A stretch of DNA of 56,421 nt from NCBI GenBank assembly GCA_015484945.1, contig WFUO01000024.1:1-56421 (forward strand). The letters run 5' to 3'. Source of the stretch: Gammaproteobacteria bacterium. GTDB taxonomy: Bacteria; Pseudomonadota; Gammaproteobacteria; WFUO01. Below, in pieces: positions 14,894 to 29,465 of the stretch. Numbering within the stretch: the first letter of the stretch is position 1; every line of letters begins with the position of its first letter. Made by a program: the position numbers and the translations under genes. A model generated the notes under the pieces. That model did no database searches. It saw nothing but the letters and a program-made list of their open reading frames with translations, and was not told where the DNA came from.

Positions 14894-14921
14894 TTGACAC
14901 CAGCCGGGGTATTGGTTAGAT
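14894..14921 (+). promoter_or_regulatory. Sigma-70 promoter of the rubrerythrin operon
   Basis: TTGACA at 14894-14899 and TTAGAT at 14916-14921 with a 16-base spacer, about 80 bases before the rubrerythrin start codon. The -10 hexamer forms the left half of the first palindromic operator, so a bound regulator would block RNA polymerase directly. Confidence 0.75.
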
Positions 14922-14930
14922 TGAATCTAA
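14916..14930. promoter_or_regulatory. Operator 1, TTAGATTGAATCTAA
   Basis: A perfect 7-1-7 palindrome lying on the -10 element. The 7-1-7 layout and TTAGAWT half-site resemble PerR/Fur-family boxes (PerR consensus TTATAATNATTATAA). The identity of the regulator is inference. It can also be written TTAGA-N5-TCTAA, a plan repeated in operator 2. Confidence 0.65.
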
Positions 14931-14949
14931 GTTTAGACCTGTTCTAAAC
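14931..14949. promoter_or_regulatory. Operator 2, GTTTAGACCTGTTCTAAAC
   Basis: A perfect inverted repeat of seven bases with a five-base centre, containing TTAGA-N5-TCTAA at 14933-14947. It is exactly 17 bases after the same pattern in operator 1, so two dimers would sit at about 1.6 helical turns from each other. It covers the probable transcription start. Confidence 0.65.
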
Positions 14950-15000
14950 CAACCCGATGTTCAACAACAATCAATGGCGATGAGCCAGAGGAAACTGACT

Positions 15001-15420
15001 ATGGAACTCAAAGGTAGCAAGACAGAACAGAGCCTGAAGGACGCATTTGCCGGTGAATCGCAGGCAAACCGTCGTTACCTCTATTTTGCGGCCAAGGCCG
15101 ATGTCGAAGGCTACAACGATGTCGCGGCCGTGTTCCGTTCGACCGCCGAGGGCGAGACCGGTCACGCGCATGGCCATCTGGAATACCTGGAAGCCAGCGG
15201 CGATCCGGCTACCGGTCTGCCGATCGGCAGCACGGCCGACAACCTGAAGGCCGCCATTGCCGGTGAGACTCACGAGTACACCGACATGTACCCGGGCATG
15301 GCCAAGACTGCCCGCGAAGAGGGTTTCGACGAAATCGCCGACTGGTTCGAAACCCTGGCCAAGGCCGAGCGTTCACACGCCAATCGCTTCCAGAAGGCCC
15401 TGGATACGCTGGACGACTGA
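15001..15420 (+). CDS. Rubrerythrin-like diiron protein without rubredoxin domain
   Basis: A 139-residue ferritin-like four-helix protein. Metal-ligand motifs are visible as GESQANRRY (Glu19), [26 protein letters not shown] and [10 protein letters not shown], the set expected for a diiron peroxidase. The C-terminal rubredoxin Fe-Cys4 domain of classical rubrerythrins is absent, so electrons must come from another protein. I chose the ATG at 15001 because AGAGGA lies at the right distance; in-frame ATGs at 14974 and 14980 exist. First gene of an operon with an iron-sulfur protein and DUF3501. Likely role: reduction of hydrogen peroxide in the cytoplasm (inference from family). Confidence 0.9.
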
Positions 15421-15455
15421 AGTCCGGCGGCAATGCAGCCGCATTGCATCCCTTG

Positions 15456-15487
15456 GCCGGGCTGGCGGCAAGTGCCGCCAGCCCGGC
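15456..15487 (+). promoter_or_regulatory. Strong 14-bp hairpin between rubrerythrin and the iron-sulfur gene
   Basis: A perfect 14-bp GC-rich stem (15456-15469 with 15474-15487) and AAGT loop. It is preceded by a smaller one, CAATGC-AGCC-GCATTG, at 15431-15446. There is no T-run, so it is more likely an mRNA stabiliser or attenuator that raises rubrerythrin output over the downstream genes than a full terminator. Confidence 0.6.
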
Positions 15488-15534
15488 ATATCCATCTGTT
15501 GAAGATGAATTTACCGACTCCGCAGGAGTGAAGC

Positions 15535-16863
15535 ATGTCGATACGTGAAGGCAATCTCGAGGCTCCCACCCGCCACCCTCTGGACTGGCGCAACCCGGAT
15601 TTCTGGGATGAAGACAAGCTGATGGCTGAACTCGAACGTGTCTATGATCATTGCCATGGGTGCCGACGCTGTGTGAGTCTGTGTCATGCCTTTCCGACCT
15701 TGTTCGACCTGGTCGATGAGTCCGAGACCATGGAAGTTGATGGTGTGGCAAAGGAAGACTACTGGAAGGTCGTCGATCACTGTTATCTATGCGATCTGTG
15801 TTACATGACCAAGTGTCCCTACGTGCCGCCGCATGAATGGAATATCGATTTTCCGCACCTGATGCTGCGTGCCAAGGCCGTTCGCCACCGCAAGCATGGC
15901 GCGCGTTTCCGGGATCGCCTGCTGACCTCGACCGATACGGTTGGCAAACTGGCCGGGATACCGGTGGTGGTCAATCTCATCAATGCAGCCAACAACTGCA
16001 AGACCACGCGCAAGTTGTTGGGCAAGACATTGGGCGTACATCCCGACGCCAGTCTGCCAAGTTATCACAGCCGTACGTTGCGCAAACGTCTGAAGGGGCA
16101 TCACAGTGATATGCAGGCCGAGCCCGCCGGACGCACACGTGGCAAGGTGGTGTTGTATGCGACCTGCTACGGCAATTACAACGAACCGCATCTGGGCGAG
16201 GATCTGGTCGCGGTGTTCGAGCATAACGGTATTCCGGTGACGTTTGCTGAAAAGGAGCAGTGCTGCGGTATGCCCAAACTGGAGCTTGGTGACCTGGAAG
16301 CTGTCGAACGTGCAAAAGAGGCCAACATACCGGTACTCGCCAGACTGGTGGACGAGGGTTGGGACATTGTCGCCCCGGTGCCTTCCTGTGCGCTGATGTA
16401 CAAGCAGGAACTGCCCCTGATGTTTCCCGACGATGCCGATGTGCTCAAGGTTCGTGACGCCATGTATGACCCTTTCGAGTATCTGGCCCTGCGTCACAAG
16501 GAAGGCAAGCTCAAGACAGATTTCCCCCAACCGCTCGGCAAGATCGCCTATCACGTGGCCTGTCACCAGCGGGTGCAGAACTTCGGCATGAAGACACGCG
16601 AGATTCTGGAGCTGGTGCCGGATACGGAAGTCGTGCCCATCGAGCGCTGTTCCGGCCATGACGGAACCTATGCGGTCAAGAGCGAGTTTCACGACATATC
16701 GATGAAGATATGCCGGCCGGTCGTCAGCCGCGTGCGGCAGTCAGAGGCACAGCACTACAGCAGCGACTGTCCGATGGCCGGACATCAGATTGCCAACGGG
16801 CTGGATGACGGCAGTCAACCCGAGCACCCGCTGACGCTGTTGCGCCGTGCCTACGGCATCTGA
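15535..16863 (+). CDS. 4Fe-4S / CCG-domain protein, heterodisulfide-reductase-like
   Basis: A 442-residue soluble protein. Two ferredoxin-type cluster motifs lie in the N-terminal third: [15 protein letters not shown] (about residues 40-54) and [16 protein letters not shown] (about 83-98). Two cysteine-rich CCG-type domains follow, with ATCYGNYN...EQCCGMP and [11 protein letters not shown]...ERCSGHDG, as in GlpC and HdrB. The last part contains [11 protein letters not shown]. Such proteins pass electrons or reduce disulfides. No flavin or membrane domain is present. It lies between the rubredoxin-less rubrerythrin and DUF3501, so it is a plausible electron donor to the diiron site. Not GlpC itself: no glpA/glpB nearby. 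Confidence 0.88.
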
Positions 16864-16887
16864 AAAACAACCATCCGGTAAGCAAAC

Positions 16888-17472
16888 ATGGAAAAACTGA
16901 CCCGAGAAGATCTCTATTCACTCGAAGCTTATGATGAAATACGCCCTGAATTCAGGCAGCGCATCATGGCGCACAAGAAGAATCGCATCGTGCCCGTGGG
17001 TGATCATGTCAAGCTGCATTTCGAGGATCGCCTGTTGATGCAGTACCAGATCCAGGAGATGTTGCGTGCCGAGAAAATCTTCAAGGCCGACGAAATTCAG
17101 GAAGAACTGGATACCTATAATCCACTGATTCCTGACGGCAGTAATTTCAAGGCCACGATGATGATCGAATACGAGGACGTGGAAGAACGGCAAAAGGCTC
17201 TGGCGCGCCTGATTGGCATCGAAAACAGGACCTGGGTTCAGGTCGAAGGCTTCGATCGTGTCTATGCGATCGCAGATGAGGACCTGGAACGCGACAACGA
17301 GGAAAAAACCTCGTCGGTGCATTTTTTGCGTTTTGAGTTGACACCGGAGATGGTCGAGGCCGTCAAGCAGGGGGCCAATATCGGGGTCGGTATCGATCAT
17401 GATGCGTATCACGTCGAAATACCGGCGATCGCGGCCAATTTCCGTGACGCTCTGGCGGCTGACCTGAACTGA
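16888..17472 (+). CDS. DUF3501 family protein
   Basis: A 194-residue soluble, acidic protein matching the DUF3501 style: MEKLTREDLYSLEAYDEIRPEFR, KKNRIVPVGDHVKLHFEDRLLMQYQIQEMLRAE and ELDTYNPLIPDG. Function unknown. Genes of this family are repeatedly found beside rubrerythrin and CCG-domain iron-sulfur genes (my recollection of gene neighbourhoods), as here, 24 bases after the iron-sulfur gene. I see no cysteine cluster or membrane segment, so it is more likely a structural or regulatory partner than a redox carrier. Confidence 0.85.
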   Translation: MEKLTREDLYSLEAYDEIRPEFRQRIMAHKKNRIVPVGDHVKLHFEDRLLMQYQIQEMLRAEKIFKADEIQEELDTYNPLIPDGSNFKATMMIEYEDVEERQKALARLIGIENRTWVQVEGFDRVYAIADEDLERDNEEKTSSVHFLRFELTPEMVEAVKQGANIGVGIDHDAYHVEIPAIAANFRDALAADLN

Positions 17473-17522
17473 AAGATCACGCCGCTGGCCACGGTCGCGC
17501 GTCATCAGGGAATATTGTCATG

Positions 17523-17563
17523 GCGCCTGTCTCTCAGACGGGCCGCAGGCGCTCCTTTGTTTT
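17523..17563 (+). terminator. Rho-independent terminator after DUF3501
   Basis: A GCGCCTG/CAGGCGC stem (17523-17529 with 17546-17552) with an inner TCT/AGA pairing, followed by TCCTTTGTTTT. It closes the rubrerythrin operon. Confidence 0.6.
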
Positions 17564-17575
17564 ACGCATATCCCC

Positions 17576-22397: not shown

Positions 22398-23482
22398 TTA
22401 GTACGTTTTTGCTGTTGTTTGCGACGTAGCTCGTTCAGGTGCCTGAGCACCCGGGTAGCACGATCGACACGTGAGATCAGCGTGGCGTTGTGCGGGTCGA
22501 AACGCAGGGCCTCCCGCCATGCTTCCCTTGCTCCCTTGATATTGCCATGGCTGTAGAGATCGTCCCCGGTACGGGTCAGCTCGGTTATCCGGCTGCGGAT
22601 TGCCGATTCGATGGCGGTATCCAGTGAATAGAGCCGCGGATGCCATGCGCCATGATTCTTCAACGCAGTAACGATCTTCCGTGCACGCAGCAGTCTGCCC
22701 CTCTTCAGCGCCAGTTGCGCCTGCCGGATACGCCGCGCAATCCGGCGACGATGACGGCGGTCCTCGCGTTTTTTTCTTGCCCTTTCACGGCGTTGCTGGA
22801 TACGGTAGCGTATCGAGGCCAGGCGTGCGAGCGCCATTGTGGTCTGTGCAGAGAAATGCAGGCGATCGGCAAGATTGAGGCATTTCTCGGCCAGTGCGTA
22901 GTTACGGTTACGCATGGCAGTGATGCCGCGGCGGGTCAGTTCGCTGGCGATCCATGTCCGATCACGTAGCGCGGTACGCAAGGCTTGCTGGATGCGCGTA
23001 TCGTCCGGGTTGATTCTGGCGAGTGACTGCTGCACAGGTATCGATGCCAACAGCCATTTTCCGCGTGCCAGCAGCAATTTTGTTTGCAGCTTGTCGCTGG
23101 CAACAGTCTGACGCCGGCGTATCTCGCGCAGTGCCTTGTTAAGCGTCTTGCTCTGCGGGTAGTTGCGCAGGGCCTGATCCAGGAGCCTCAGGCTGGCGGC
23201 CCAGTTTCCTTCCTGTTGCAGACGCAGAGCCTTTGTGGATGTTTGCCGTGCGTAGCGTTCTGCGATCCGGCGAACACGTGCGAGACGCTGTTTGTTGGTG
23301 GCAGAGGGGTATTGCCGGTTTCGCCGTTCGAGCACGGTAACAGCCTTGCCGTACTGACGGTTCTTGACCCATTGATCGATTTGCTGCTGGCTGATCAGGC
23401 GTACCGGCAGGTACTCGGTACAGGCAGAGAGCGCGAGCAGGGAGACAAAGATCAGCAGTCTGACCACCGGAGACATCTTCAT
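22379..23482 (-). CDS. Lipoprotein with helical (TPR-like) repeats
   Basis: 367 residues. The N-terminus is a lipoprotein signal with lipobox LLALSAC-T (Cys about residue 21). The mature part is very basic and helical with TPR-like units such as [48 protein letters not shown] and [18 protein letters not shown]. It ends in an Arg/Lys-rich stretch. Likely an outer- or inner-membrane-anchored scaffold. Its ATG overlaps the stop of the adenylyl cyclase gene (ATGA), so it is translated from the same mRNA and may work with that sensor. Confidence 0.8.
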
Positions 23483-25053
23483 GCGTTGTTTCCGCGGTAC
23501 TGTTGCAGGAAGTTGTCGATCTCGCGTGTCATTGCAGACTGATATTCGTACTGGACATCGTGGACCAGATAGGTTGTGACCGGTGCGGACTTGCCACGTA
23601 TGCGGATGGACTCGTGGCGCGAGGCGATGATCTTGCGGTGTATGTCAGGCAGACGATAGGCCTCTTCGGTGATGATGATCTGGTCGGTACCCGCGACATT
23701 GCACAGGCGAGATGCCAGATTGACGGTATCTCCCACCACAGTGTATTGCATGTGCTGTTCCGAACCGATATTTCCGGCCAGCATCTCGCCGATATTGACA
23801 CCGATGCGAAAATGGATAGGGAACTTGCCCCGCGCGATACGCAGGTTGTTGAATTTCTCCATCAGGCGCTGGAAGAACACCGCGCAGGCAATGGCATTGA
23901 ATACGTGGTCTTCGTCTTCTTCAGGCACGCCGAAGACCAGCATCGCACAGTCACCGATGTACTTGTCTATGGTGCCCTTGTAGAGCAAGGCGGCCAGACT
24001 GATGTTTGTGTAGAACTCGTTGAGCAGTTCGGCAACGGCTTCGGGCGGCATATTCTCCGATTTGGCGGTGAAGCCGACGATATCGACGAACATCACACTG
24101 CCGAATACCTGTTTGCCGCCCAGTTTGACCTGCTCCAGGTTATTGAGAATATCCTTGGCAACGTTCGACGGCACATAACGTGAAAAGGCGTCTTCTACCT
24201 GGGTCTTCTGCAACAGCCCCTGTGCCATGGTGTTGATGGAAGTCATCAGATAGCCCAGTTCGTCGTTACGTCGTTCATGCAGACGGATGTCGTAGTTTCC
24301 GCGCGAGATCGCATCACTGGCATCCATCAGTGAGTTGAGTGGGCGTGACAGCCTGCGGCCAAGCAGATACGAAGTGATGATACCAAGGATGATGAGCAGG
24401 ATCGTGGCCGCGGTGATGGCGCGCTTGGCATCGGCGATGGCCTGTATCAGTGGCGCCTTGCTCACCGAGATCAATGCGTAACCTGCGATGACGTTGCGGT
24501 AGCGAATGGGGGTAATGAAGGCAATGGCCTCGATCTGTCCGCGAGGTGAATTACGCCAGCGCCACTCGATGGCGTGTTCCGCTCCGTCGAGCAGGGCATT
24601 GCGATGGCCTTCGAGGGGGGCGTTCTTTTCGAACGGGCTGCTGCCGGCATGAGACAGGATCTGCCGGTCTGCCGAAAAGATGGCGGTTCCGACGACCCCC
24701 TTGCTGCGCGCCAGGTTGATGGTCAGTACATCGATCATCAGGTTATCCTTGGCGAGCAGGTGATCACGGGCCGAATTGGCCATTTGAGTCGATAGTGTGA
24801 TCCCGAAGTTGCGTATCTGCGAATCCAGCAGCCGGGTCTGGTTGTCAACGATGACCGAACCGAGCAGCAACATGGAGATGCTGAGCATGATACCGATGGA
24901 GATGGCAAGCTTGACGGCAACCGGAATCCGTGCGGGCATCAGACGCGCCAGCCAGCCCCGCAACTTGTTCATGACAAGCCGGGTAAGCGGGCGGGTCGCT
25001 GCCGCAGCCGGTTCGGGCAGACGAACCGGATTGTCGTCAGGCATCTTTTTCAT
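23479..25053 (-). CDS. Membrane-bound class III adenylyl cyclase with HAMP domain
   Basis: 524 residues: cytoplasmic N-terminus, membrane segment about 45-69, a periplasmic sensor of about 140 residues, second membrane segment about 213-233, HAMP domain (RRLSRPLNSLMDASDAISRGNYDIRL), then a cyclase domain from about 310. All catalytic positions are visible. Metal aspartates are in MFVDIVGFT and YIGDCAMLVFG, the base-selecting Lys is in TIDKYIGD paired with Thr in QYTVVGDTVN, and the transition-state Asn and Arg are in TVNLASRL. The Lys/Thr pair points to ATP, so an active class IIIb adenylyl cyclase is predicted. The periplasmic ligand is unknown. Coupled to the downstream lipoprotein gene. 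Confidence 0.9.
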   Translation of the reverse strand: MKKMPDDNPVRLPEPAAAATRPLTRLVMNKLRGWLARLMPARIPVAVKLAISIGIMLSISMLLLGSVIVDNQTRLLDSQIRNFGITLSTQMANSARDHLLAKDNLMIDVLTINLARSKGVVGTAIFSADRQILSHAGSSPFEKNAPLEGHRNALLDGAEHAIEWRWRNSPRGQIEAIAFITPIRYRNVIAGYALISVSKAPLIQAIADAKRAITAATILLIILGIITSYLLGRRLSRPLNSLMDASDAISRGNYDIRLHERRNDELGYLMTSINTMAQGLLQKTQVEDAFSRYVPSNVAKDILNNLEQVKLGGKQVFGSVMFVDIVGFTAKSENMPPEAVAELLNEFYTNISLAALLYKGTIDKYIGDCAMLVFGVPEEDEDHVFNAIACAVFFQRLMEKFNNLRIARGKFPIHFRIGVNIGEMLAGNIGSEQHMQYTVVGDTVNLASRLCNVAGTDQIIITEEAYRLPDIHRKIIASRHESIRIRGKSAPVTTYLVHDVQYEYQSAMTREIDNFLQQYRGNNA

Positions 25054-25464
25054 TGTCCGCGGTCATCAGCCCGAATGATGTCCTGGCAAACGATGCCAGA
25101 TACATGGCGGCTGAGTCATCAATCGAAAATCTCAATGTGTTTCATCAGGATGCGGTTGAACCGTCAATCCGATGCCGCTTGTCTCTCCCCTGTTTCATCC
25201 GGGCACCTTCGAGCTTTGCTGATACAACCCGGATGGCCATGTGCCCCGGACTTTTTGTGATCACGCCGGTTTGTACATGGTTATAGTTATAATAGCATGT
25301 TTCCTGCATCTTATGAGTTTGGGTAAGTTATTGAAATATCAAGCTGATCATCAGAAATAGCAGACGCGCGCGCCGGGTTGGGCGGTCTCGCCCTGTGCAA
25401 AGTCTTGCCTGGCGGGTAAAATGCCGGCTTTCTTGCCATGCAATTCTTTCCACAGGAAGCTGAT
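25054..25464. other. Intergenic region between cyclase and DUF1015 genes
   Basis: Divergent spacer of about 410 bases. It is locally AT-rich around 25280-25340 and holds TAAAAT at 25417-25422, a possible -10 for the DUF1015 gene with only a weak -35. The short frames here look like chance. Confidence 0.4.
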
Positions 25465-26709
25465 ATGACACTGATCAAAGCGTTCCGAGGTCTGCGCCCC
25501 GTATCCGAGCATGCCGCCGATGTCGTGGCACCGCCATATGATGTTCTGAACACCGAGGAGGCACGTGCGCGCGCCCGGGGCAGGCCCATGAGCTTCCTGC
25601 ACATTTCCAAGCCGGAGATTGATCTTCCGCCGGGTACGGACCCCTATGCGCCCGAGGTTTACGCCAAGGGCGCCGAAAACCTGCAGCGGCTGGTCGCCGA
25701 TGGGGTGCTGAAACGTGACCCCGAACCGTGCTACTACGTCTATCGGCTGGTCATGGGTGAGCATGTGCAGACCGGCCTGGTTGCTGTCGCCTCGGTGGCC
25801 GATTACGACAGTAATCGCATTCGCAAGCATGAATTCACGCGCCCCGCCAAGGAAGACGATCGTGTACGCCAGATCGACGCGCTCAATGCCCAGACGGGTC
25901 CGGTGTTTTTGACCTACCGCCACGACGGTGTCGTTGATGCCATCATCGATGAGGTTGTGCAGACGGCACCGGAGTATGATCTGACAGCCGACGATGGTGT
26001 GCGTCATATCCTCTGGGTGGTGAACGATCAGGACAGAATCGTGGCGCTGACCGAACGCTTCGATGCGATGGCGTGTCTCTATATTGCCGATGGCCATCAC
26101 CGTTCGGCCGCTGCCTCGCGCATCGCGGCCATGCGCCGTGAGAGCAATCCCGGTCATACCGGCGAAGAAGGCTACAATTATTTTCTTTCGGTGATCTTTC
26201 CGGACAACCAGATGCAAATCCTCGACTACAACCGGGTGATAACCGATCTCAATGGCCTGGACGGCAACACATTCCTTGCGCGCGTTGCCGATGCATTTGA
26301 TGTAGAGGAACAGTCCACTGCCTACCGGCCGGATGGCCCGGCGCGTTTCGGCATGTATCTGGCTGGCAAATGGTACCGTCTGGCGCTGAAACCCGAATTG
26401 ATACCTGCCGATGATCCGGTTGCGCGTCTGGATGTCAGCCTGTTGCACACAAACCTGATAGAGCCGGTGCTGGGGATCAGTGATCCGCGCCGCGACGAGC
26501 GAATCGATTTCGTCGGCGGCATCCGCGGCTTGCAGGAACTGGAGAAGCGGGTTGACAGCGGTGAGATGGCCGTGGCTTTTTCCCTCTACCCCACCAGTAT
26601 GGAAGACCTGATGTCGGTGGCCGATGCCAACGAAGTCATGCCGCCAAAATCGACCTGGTTCGAACCCAAGCTGGCAGATGGCCTTGTCTCGCATGTGCTC
26701 GACGACTGA
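25465..26709 (+). CDS. DUF1015 family protein
   Basis: 414 residues beginning MTLIKAFRGLRPVSEHAADVVAPPYDVLNTEEAR, the typical DUF1015 N-terminus, with HISKPEIDLPP and the conserved IADGHHRSAAA motif in mid-protein. That motif resembles the DGHHR active-site motif of ParB/sulfiredoxin-fold enzymes, so a nucleotide-dependent small-molecule enzyme is possible, but this is inference and the family is uncharacterised. I start at 25465 because AGGAAG is 5 bases upstream; the frame opens at 25438. It is monocistronic, flanked by long spacers. Confidence 0.85.
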   Translation: MTLIKAFRGLRPVSEHAADVVAPPYDVLNTEEARARARGRPMSFLHISKPEIDLPPGTDPYAPEVYAKGAENLQRLVADGVLKRDPEPCYYVYRLVMGEHVQTGLVAVASVADYDSNRIRKHEFTRPAKEDDRVRQIDALNAQTGPVFLTYRHDGVVDAIIDEVVQTAPEYDLTADDGVRHILWVVNDQDRIVALTERFDAMACLYIADGHHRSAAASRIAAMRRESNPGHTGEEGYNYFLSVIFPDNQMQILDYNRVITDLNGLDGNTFLARVADAFDVEEQSTAYRPDGPARFGMYLAGKWYRLALKPELIPADDPVARLDVSLLHTNLIEPVLGISDPRRDERIDFVGGIRGLQELEKRVDSGEMAVAFSLYPTSMEDLMSVADANEVMPPKSTWFEPKLADGLVSHVLDD

Positions 26710-27383: not shown

Positions 27384-29465
27384 TCAGCTGTCTTCGTCGA
27401 AGTTGAAGTTCATCCCGGCTTCGGGCTTTTGCAGGAAGTGCCCCTGGATGTATTTGACACCGGTCTGCCACAGTACCGCTAGGCTGTTGGCGTCTTCGAC
27501 GAATTCGGCGATTGTGGGTATATCCAGTTTGTCAGCCTTGTCGGCTAATTGCTGTAGTTTTTCCTGGTTTTCCTGGTTGTTCGCCAGGTTGTGCATCAGG
27601 TGGCCGTCGAGCTTCAGATAACTGGCCTTGATGTGTTGAAGGATCTGGAACGGGTGCTGTGATGTGCCAAAATGCTCGATACAGAAGCCGGCATGCAGTT
27701 CTGACAGGTTGCTGACGAACTGTTTGGCATTCTTGAGGTATTTGGCGGTATCGGCCTCCGAGACTTGGAACACTACGGCGCTGCCCTGCAGGCGGTGTTT
27801 TTTCAATTGCTGACTGATCCAGGGCAGCAGGGTTTCATCGGTCAGGGTTTTGCCATCCAGTTTGATGAAAAAGGTGGTATCAAAGCCATTCTGTCGCCGG
27901 TCCGCGAGTATTCCAAACGCATGATCGATGACCCAGCGATCGATGGTATTCATCAACTTGTGTTTCTTTGCGGCAGGCAGGAACTGGCCGGGGAGGATCT
28001 CATTGTCTTCCTCGTCCCGCATGCGCAACAGAACCTCGTATTTCTCGGAGGTGTCGCCATGCAGGCTGGCTATGGGCTGATAGATGAGGTAGAAGCGGTC
28101 ATTGTCCAGTGCGTCACGAATCAAATGGCTCCAGTACTGGTCACGTTCCTCGTTGGCATCCCCGTCTGTGAGCGGATTGTGTACATGGTAACGGTTGCCG
28201 CCTTCCTTGCGTGCCATGTTGCAGGCTACATCCGCGTTAGACAACAGGGTCTGACTGTCTTCGACCATGGGAGTGATCGGGCTGATACCGATACTGCAGG
28301 TAATGGTCAGGGATTCGCCGTCGATATCGGAGATATGGTTTTCCACTGCCCGGCAAACATCCCGGGCAAGTTGTTCGATTTCCTCGATGCTGCTGCGTGT
28401 GGCCAGAATCGTAAAGGAATGATCGCCAAAACGAGCCGCCATGTCGTTGCCGCTGATGTTCTCTCTGATCAGGTTGGCAATGTCACTGAGCACCAGGTCA
28501 ATGCCAGCCAGCCCCACCTTGGCCTTGATATCGTTGTAGTTATCGGGTTCGATATACAGCACGGCGCGTTTGATATCATCCTGAATCTCATGCTGTAACA
28601 GCAGATCGAGTTCTTCGAGGAAATATTGCCGGTTGAACAGCCCGGTAAGCAGATCCTGCTTGCTCAGGTAGTCTATCTTTTCCTCCAGCTCCTCGTTGCT
28701 GGTGCGGTCACGGATGATGATCTGGGTGCAGGGTTCGCCTTCGATACTGGCGGGCGAGAACTCCATGCGAGCGTTGAACACCTTGCCATCCGGCAACAGG
28801 GCGCGCACTTCCAGTTCCTGATGCTTGTTTTCACCCTTGCTGTATTCACGCAGAAATTTCTTGAATGTGTCATGGTCCTCGGGTGCGATCATGTCCAGTA
28901 CCGGCATGCCCTCAACATCGTCGGGGTTGTCAAAGCCGAACATGTTGAGATACACCGGATTGGCGAGGATGTGCATGCCTTCATGCACATAGGCAATCGC
29001 ATCACGCGAGCTGTTGAGCAGGTTCTGGCATTGCAGTTCCAGTTCCCTGGTTGTTTCGTCGATGGAGTCGAGCTTGCGCTGTGTTCGCAGGTGGCCGATC
29101 TCGCGCTCGAGGACGAATGTGGCGTGAGCCGTGTTGTCCTTGCCAATCAGGTCGGCTGCGCCATTTTCCATGGCAGCGTTCTGCAGTTCGGGGGTTACCG
29201 TATCACAGGTGGCGATGACCGGAACGGCTGGATCCTTGGCATGTACGGCACTGGCGACCTGTTGTAACGTGGGCTCCGGGGAGTCGAGGGCGCACAGCAC
29301 CATGTCGAGCGACGTGATATCGACAACTTGCCGCAATTCCTCCTCGTCTTCGGCACTGGCGGGGCGCACGGGATATCCGGCATTGCGAAGGATGTTGGAC
29401 AGCATTTCCACATCGTTCAGGGAATCCTCGACGATAAGAATACTGAGCGCCTTGTCTGCTGTCAC
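27384..29465 (-). CDS. fimX: FimX-like c-di-GMP receptor (REC-PAS-GGDEF*-EAL*)
   Basis: 693 residues, the same length and domain order as Pseudomonas FimX, a c-di-GMP receptor for type IV pilus assembly and twitching. The REC domain (about 6-125) has Ala59 where the phosphoacceptor Asp should be. PAS lies at about 145-255 (YVHEGMHILANPVYLNMFGF). The GGDEF domain reads RFGDHSF (345-351) instead of RxGGDEF. The EAL domain has EVL at 477-479, EHFG (597-600) instead of DDFG, and retains QPI, KLDG, IAEFVE and YIQG. The pattern indicates a binding protein with no cyclase or phosphodiesterase activity. Segments YVHEGMH and QVSEADTAKYLKNAKQ match FimX closely by eye. No pil genes are in the window. 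Confidence 0.88.
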   Translation of the reverse strand: MTADKALSILIVEDSLNDVEMLSNILRNAGYPVRPASAEDEEELRQVVDITSLDMVLCALDSPEPTLQQVASAVHAKDPAVPVIATCDTVTPELQNAAMENGAADLIGKDNTAHATFVLEREIGHLRTQRKLDSIDETTRELELQCQNLLNSSRDAIAYVHEGMHILANPVYLNMFGFDNPDDVEGMPVLDMIAPEDHDTFKKFLREYSKGENKHQELEVRALLPDGKVFNARMEFSPASIEGEPCTQIIIRDRTSNEELEEKIDYLSKQDLLTGLFNRQYFLEELDLLLQHEIQDDIKRAVLYIEPDNYNDIKAKVGLAGIDLVLSDIANLIRENISGNDMAARFGDHSFTILATRSSIEEIEQLARDVCRAVENHISDIDGESLTITCSIGISPITPMVEDSQTLLSNADVACNMARKEGGNRYHVHNPLTDGDANEERDQYWSHLIRDALDNDRFYLIYQPIASLHGDTSEKYEVLLRMRDEEDNEILPGQFLPAAKKHKLMNTIDRWVIDHAFGILADRRQNGFDTTFFIKLDGKTLTDETLLPWISQQLKKHRLQGSAVVFQVSEADTAKYLKNAKQFVSNLSELHAGFCIEHFGTSQHPFQILQHIKASYLKLDGHLMHNLANNQENQEKLQQLADKADKLDIPTIAEFVEDANSLAVLWQTGVKYIQGHFLQKPEAGMNFNFDEDS

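Follow-up and report, generated by a model that had tools for sequence, protein, structure and literature searches.

The locus described here lies in a 56,421-nt stretch of gammaproteobacterial DNA (contig WFUO01000024.1; the window) and comprises three genes with a promoter and two predicted operators upstream and a probable intrinsic terminator downstream (Table 1). The initial annotation had read them as an operon encoding a rubrerythrin that lacks its rubredoxin domain, an iron-sulfur protein and a DUF3501 protein, and this layout was borne out, with three + strand open reading frames, a conserved promoter and a plausible terminator. The first product matches PF02915 (E=1e-29) and has a ferritin-like domain only, with no rubredoxin domain, and the third matches PF12007 (E=6e-75). 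Note that the ATG at 15001 is a better start for rbr than that at 14974, as it is preceded by AGAGGA and agrees with the start in relatives. The consensus promoter match (TTGACA-17-TAGATT) is by itself no more than expected by chance; the pair of hexamers is conserved in relatives. Downstream of duf3501, folding of positions 17512-17566 found a hairpin with a 9-pair stem and an inner hairpin, followed by TCCTTTGTTTT, that had been missed by our terminator scan, probably because of the loop-size limit of the scan. A search of the leader of the operon for riboswitches and other known RNAs found none. The trio is flanked by xseB, ispA and dxs on the - strand (on the evidence of Pfam for xseB and of the sequence itself for ispA and dxs) and by a downstream CNP1-like gene (Pfam). 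Elsewhere in the window, a HAMP-adenylate/guanylate cyclase gene and a gene for a receiver-PAS-GGDEF-EAL protein lie near one another on the - strand (23479-25053 and 27384-29465), and long open frames overlap at 25351-26694 (-) and 25438-26709 (+), the - strand frame having no Pfam match.

Table 1 Features of the rbr operon (positions counted from the first letter of the window)
Feature	Position	Strand	Evidence or remark
Promoter: -35 TTGACA, 17-nt spacer, -10 TAGATT	14894..14922	+	TTGACA(-like) -35 at equivalent site relative to operator in 15/16 loci
Operator 1 (predicted), perfect palindrome TTAGATTGAATCTAA, spans -10 hexamer	14916..14930	.	Only strict match in own genome
Operator 2 (predicted), TTTAGACCTGTTCTAAA, 9 nt past -10, over expected transcription start	14932..14948	.	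Only exact match in own genome
rbr, single-domain aerobic-type rubrerythrin, 139 aa from better start	15001..15420 (ORF opens 14974)	+	Pfam; solved chains
RFO/GlpC-like iron-sulfur gene (rfo)	15535..16863	+	Pfam CCG; Cys motifs; fold kin LutA, EtfD, HdrB
DUF3501 protein, 194 aa (duf3501)	16888..17472	+	Pfam; solved relative 3fjv
Probable intrinsic terminator	17522..17563	+	-18.9 kcal/mol, z=-2.96; T-rich tail after

The trio is almost certainly a known module of three genes for peroxide defence, the aerobic-type rubrerythrin operon. In Cardenas et al. 2016 (PMC5114695), which is also the source of the name RFO for the iron-sulfur gene, the same genes are described as "aerobic-type rubrerythrin + DUF3501 + RFO", all three co-occur in 185 genomes and RBR-DUF3501 occurs alone in 25, and RFO is proposed as a stand-in for the rubredoxin domain. 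The module has also been reported in jakobid mitochondria (PMC7050145) and in Acidihalobacter (PMC7760498). The present locus has in common with that system the three families, their order and the single-domain rubrerythrin: the 139-aa Rbr has no rubredoxin domain, and genes for DUF3501 and a COG0247/RFO protein are co-located with it. Consistent with the conserved neighbourhood that the initial annotation had proposed to look for, the order rbr-rfo-duf3501 is kept in all 22 DUF3501-bearing genomes from other families of the class and in 20 of 20 further loci fetched from across the phylum. The distribution of DUF3501 is patchy, as it was found in 23 of 56 relatives and in 22 of 299 genomes of the phylum (the organism's own genome being counted in both samples).

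Rbr is 80-96% identical across families, and its nearest solved chains are rubrerythrins (9onm, 4di0 and 8fuh), at E of about 1e-75, with sulerythrin at about 1e-52. Like Rbr, both sulerythrin and ferriperoxin (Fpx) of Hydrogenobacter thermophilus are single-domain rubrerythrins of aerobes. Fpx is an NADPH/FNR-dependent peroxidase in vitro, and enzyme and mutant evidence indicates that its gene is required for aerobic growth (PMC3317640). Because Fpx belongs to the same rubrerythrin group, a peroxidase role for Rbr is, by analogy, well founded, and Rbr would reduce H2O2 at its di-iron site. The initial annotation had called the three genes a self-contained unit, a description that finds no support, since NADPH and FNR are all that Fpx needs in vitro (PMC3317640) and RFO is absent from some loci. 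It had also taken rubrerythrin activity independent of the other two products as evidence against the unit, and such activity is in part what is found, as Fpx reduces peroxides without RFO or DUF3501 (PMC3317640). Note that in H. thermophilus, unlike in the present operon, rfo lies apart from the other two genes (PMC5114695).

RFO had been expected to carry two ferredoxin-type motifs and two CCG domains, and this description is correct except at the second CCG site. PF02754 (CCG) matches twice, together with weak 4Fe-4S dicluster matches, and there are two invariant four-Cys ferredoxin-type motifs (one of them C83,86,89,94). The first CCG site has four Cys (C211, C243, C244 and C285). The second is degenerate, with only C343, C372 and C412 besides H375, which is invariant within 'RCSGH', so that two of the five Cys are missing, the equivalent positions of Escherichia coli GlpC reading CCGI and DCETC. 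Since the second motif is CSG rather than CCG, RFO is not a canonical double-CCG protein. Clusters of the HdrB type are ligated by five Cys; with three Cys left, the residues present suggest that a canonical five-Cys cluster should not form at the second site. The RFO model (pLDDT 87.5) has LutA, EtfD and HdrB as structural kin, and a search for solved sequence relatives of RFO found none. Thus RFO shares 4Fe-4S motifs and the CCG fold with the carriers GlpC, LutA and HdrB but differs from them in its three-Cys second site with CSGH and in not lying beside glpAB or lutBC.

Whether RFO is the main electron donor to rubrerythrin we regard as nearly an even question. In such a scheme RFO would hand electrons to Rbr through its two 4Fe-4S clusters and CCG site, and other donors could substitute. 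Nearly every trio has RFO within the operon, and its architecture is that of an electron carrier; both points argue for this role. A serious alternative, though one to which we give somewhat less than even weight, is that rubrerythrin receives its electrons from ferredoxin:NADPH reductase/ferredoxin or from rubredoxin, and that RFO and DUF3501 have some other task, for example assembling or repairing the di-iron site or reducing another oxidant. In the work on Fpx, electrons were supplied by FNR (PMC3317640), and pairs of RBR and DUF3501 without RFO nearby exist: in two Proteobacteria MAGs rbr is followed directly by duf3501 with no rfo alongside (L126 5515-6579 and L169 5516-6579), and such pairs also appear in PMC5114695. 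Moreover, rubredoxin was found in 20 of 23 trio genomes, so other electron donors are available; against this, it is missing from two nearly or fully complete trio genomes (G015 and G039; 100% and 98% complete) and went undetected in the own genome, which is 76% complete.

The DUF3501 protein has no conserved Cys and contains an invariant loop at about residues 129-148 (ADEDLER..KTSSVHFLR). It has a solved relative, 3fjv (E=1e-78); structural matches beyond 3fjv, to the proteasome and others, fell below significance. In the model (pLDDT 92) the sole uncertain segment, residues 134-139 (pLDDT under 50), lies inside the most invariant stretch, 129-148, as we infer might be expected of a loop that becomes ordered upon binding. 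Because RBR and DUF3501 form the constant pair, DUF3501 appears to be a more intimate partner of rubrerythrin than RFO. That it is a docking partner is nevertheless rather doubtful; as a guess, DUF3501 might act as a docking or assembly partner of Rbr through the invariant flexible loop.

The promoter of the operon carries two palindromes; at no more than one mismatch, the window contains three matches when 0.17 would be expected. A consensus, TTTAGACTNAGTCTAAA, derived from 41 sites in orthologous promoters, occurs at the equivalent place in most relatives (note that the 41 sites were picked for their match to the core, so that only the non-core columns are informative). In 15 of 15 loci with a scored promoter the box either spans the -10 hexamer or starts 7-15 nt after it, where a repressor would be expected to bind. 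In its strict form the palindrome has 16 sites in 25 genomes, or about one per genome, and since 14 of the 16 are at the trio promoter it is almost specific to a single operon; none was found in one genome with a decayed trio (G034) nor in six other trio genomes that have neither box nor Irr. A search of the own genome for a further operator gave one site with a single mismatch, upstream of an ArsR-family gene (G000:C12:11722) and probably a chance occurrence. The trio palindrome resembles the Irr/ICE box.

Only two Fur-family genes were found in the own genome (76% complete), one encoding Fur and the other a protein nearest Irr (it scores 129 bits against IrrA, 85 against PerRA and 23 against E. 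coli-type Fur). The latter gene, at G000:C35:143422-143799 (L003 1417-1845, - strand), is unlinked to the trio, so that calling the trio self-contained also leaves out its likely regulator. A candidate box, AATAGACTTTGTCTAAA, lies at -39 of this gene, and a similar box precedes the Irr-like genes themselves in a few cases, the own genome among them. Because its product falls short of the NCBIfam Irr/IrrA equivalog cut-offs (129 of 150 and 123 of 170 bits), we refer to it as Irr-like rather than Irr. Across genomes, scores of the Irr-like proteins range from 94 to 138 bits, short of the IrrA cut-off of 150, and are separated from Fur (at least 94 as opposed to at most 71 bits). In a tree, in which bootstrap values are not fully settled, Irr-like and known Irr proteins cluster together to the exclusion of Fur (100/100), with a gamma branch (97/92), and an HxH heme-binding motif (HHH, HFH or HYH) is present in all Irr-like rows of the alignment. 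Irr has been reviewed as confined to alphaproteobacteria, with few exceptions. The alphaproteobacterial Irr/ICE regulon (PMC7762939, PMC3413700) shows the same combination as the present case, namely a Fur-family clade with HxH, a palindromic promoter operator, and iron and peroxide genes; the present proteins differ from alphaproteobacterial Irr in forming a separate gamma/beta branch and in having about one operator per genome.

Occurrence of the operator follows that of the Irr-like gene. Among 43 trio genomes, the operator was found in 21 of 26 with an Irr-like gene and in 1 of 17 without one (Fisher p=1e-6), the chance rate being about 1.5% per 300 nt in shuffled promoters. A second set, made up of 48 less complete genomes that are for the most part MAGs, gave corresponding counts of 20 of 25 and 8 of 23 (p=0.003). 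Relatedness weakens this association, since a tree of the trio proteins offers few independent contrasts: about five well-supported independent pairs, of which a mean of 3.9 agree and 0 disagree (median p 0.125). Independent support comes from physical linkage, as five loci (G006, L117, L132, L157 and L164) have an Irr-like gene next to the trio and, in five genomes from a different class (presumably Alphaproteobacteria), an irr gene whose product scores above the NCBIfam cut-off leads the series irr-rbr-rfo-duf3501. The sequence evidence thus makes Irr-type control of the trio quite probable.

An improbable alternative is that a different regulator (PerR-like, Rrf2 or one of unknown type) recognises the palindrome and that Irr-type genes are merely co-distributed with the module. 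In favour of this alternative are the box in genomes where no Irr was found (G011 and eight genomes of the second set, all of them MAGs) and the 6 of 33 relatives that have Irr but no DUF3501. It fits less well with the adjacency of Irr genes and trio in distant lineages, with the likeness to the Irr/ICE box, and with there being, among the Fur-family genes found in the own genome, just one besides Fur, which is Irr-like.

Two further loci depart from the usual arrangement. In G034, which has an Irr-like gene and no box, rbr and rfo are intact and duf3501 is broken by an insertion of ~240 bp and by frame changes (L049 2650-3600; G034:C1, about 277650-278600, - strand), making this a natural case of decay. 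At L117 4673-7221, rfo and duf3501 are accompanied by a convergent Irr-like gene, and no rbr was recognised upstream.

It is very improbable that RFO is simply a GlpC in the wrong place, part of a dehydrogenase and with no bearing on peroxide: GlpC is its best NCBIfam match and E. coli GlpC is 26% identical to it, but RFO falls below the cut-offs (245.6 of 278 and 171.7 of 279.9 bits), lacks the five-Cys second site, has invariant CSGH and DC..A where GlpC has CCGI and DCETC, has no glpA or glpB beside its gene, and is tied to rbr in 42 sampled loci.

We consider the reading as a whole, that of a known module with an Irr-type repressor, a peroxidase in Rbr, a donor in RFO and a partner in DUF3501, to be fairly likely. 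The unlinked Irr-type repressor would bind as a dimer to both palindromes over the -10 hexamer and the start, blocking transcription, and would let go when a heme or iron signal, or oxidation, alters it. Known Irr binds ICE boxes without heme and releases them or is degraded with heme, and ROS-mediated degradation has been proposed for Irr of B. japonicum (PMC7762939). The operon would then be silent under iron or heme shortage and active in the presence of available iron or of peroxide, a direction that we infer, so that the iron-rich peroxidase would be made only with plentiful iron or heme, or with peroxide. A mild counter-signal to this direction is the 1.57-fold rise of the Pelagibacter rbr transcript under iron limitation (PMC2864753), though that rubrerythrin may be of another type.

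The three-gene module itself is known, and what looks undescribed is its operator and candidate Irr-type repressor. The literature consulted contained nothing that ties Irr to the trio, and the link may be partly known for alphaproteobacteria; in PMC5114695 the term Irr does not appear and, as far as consulted, no operator is given, unlike for the present locus. It is conceivable, if rather unlikely, that Irr arose, or early travelled, as a local switch of the aerobic rubrerythrin module, that it still serves essentially this operon in gamma- and betaproteobacteria, and that its global heme and iron role in alphaproteobacteria is derived. The module is spread over gamma-, beta- and alphaproteobacteria, Aquificae and Crenarchaeota and has been inferred for the mitochondrion of LECA (PMC7050145 and PMC5114695). 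A conserved operator and a candidate repressor make control of this widespread module directly testable, and predict that it answers to heme or iron supply besides peroxide; Irr-type control would thereby reach beyond alphaproteobacteria.
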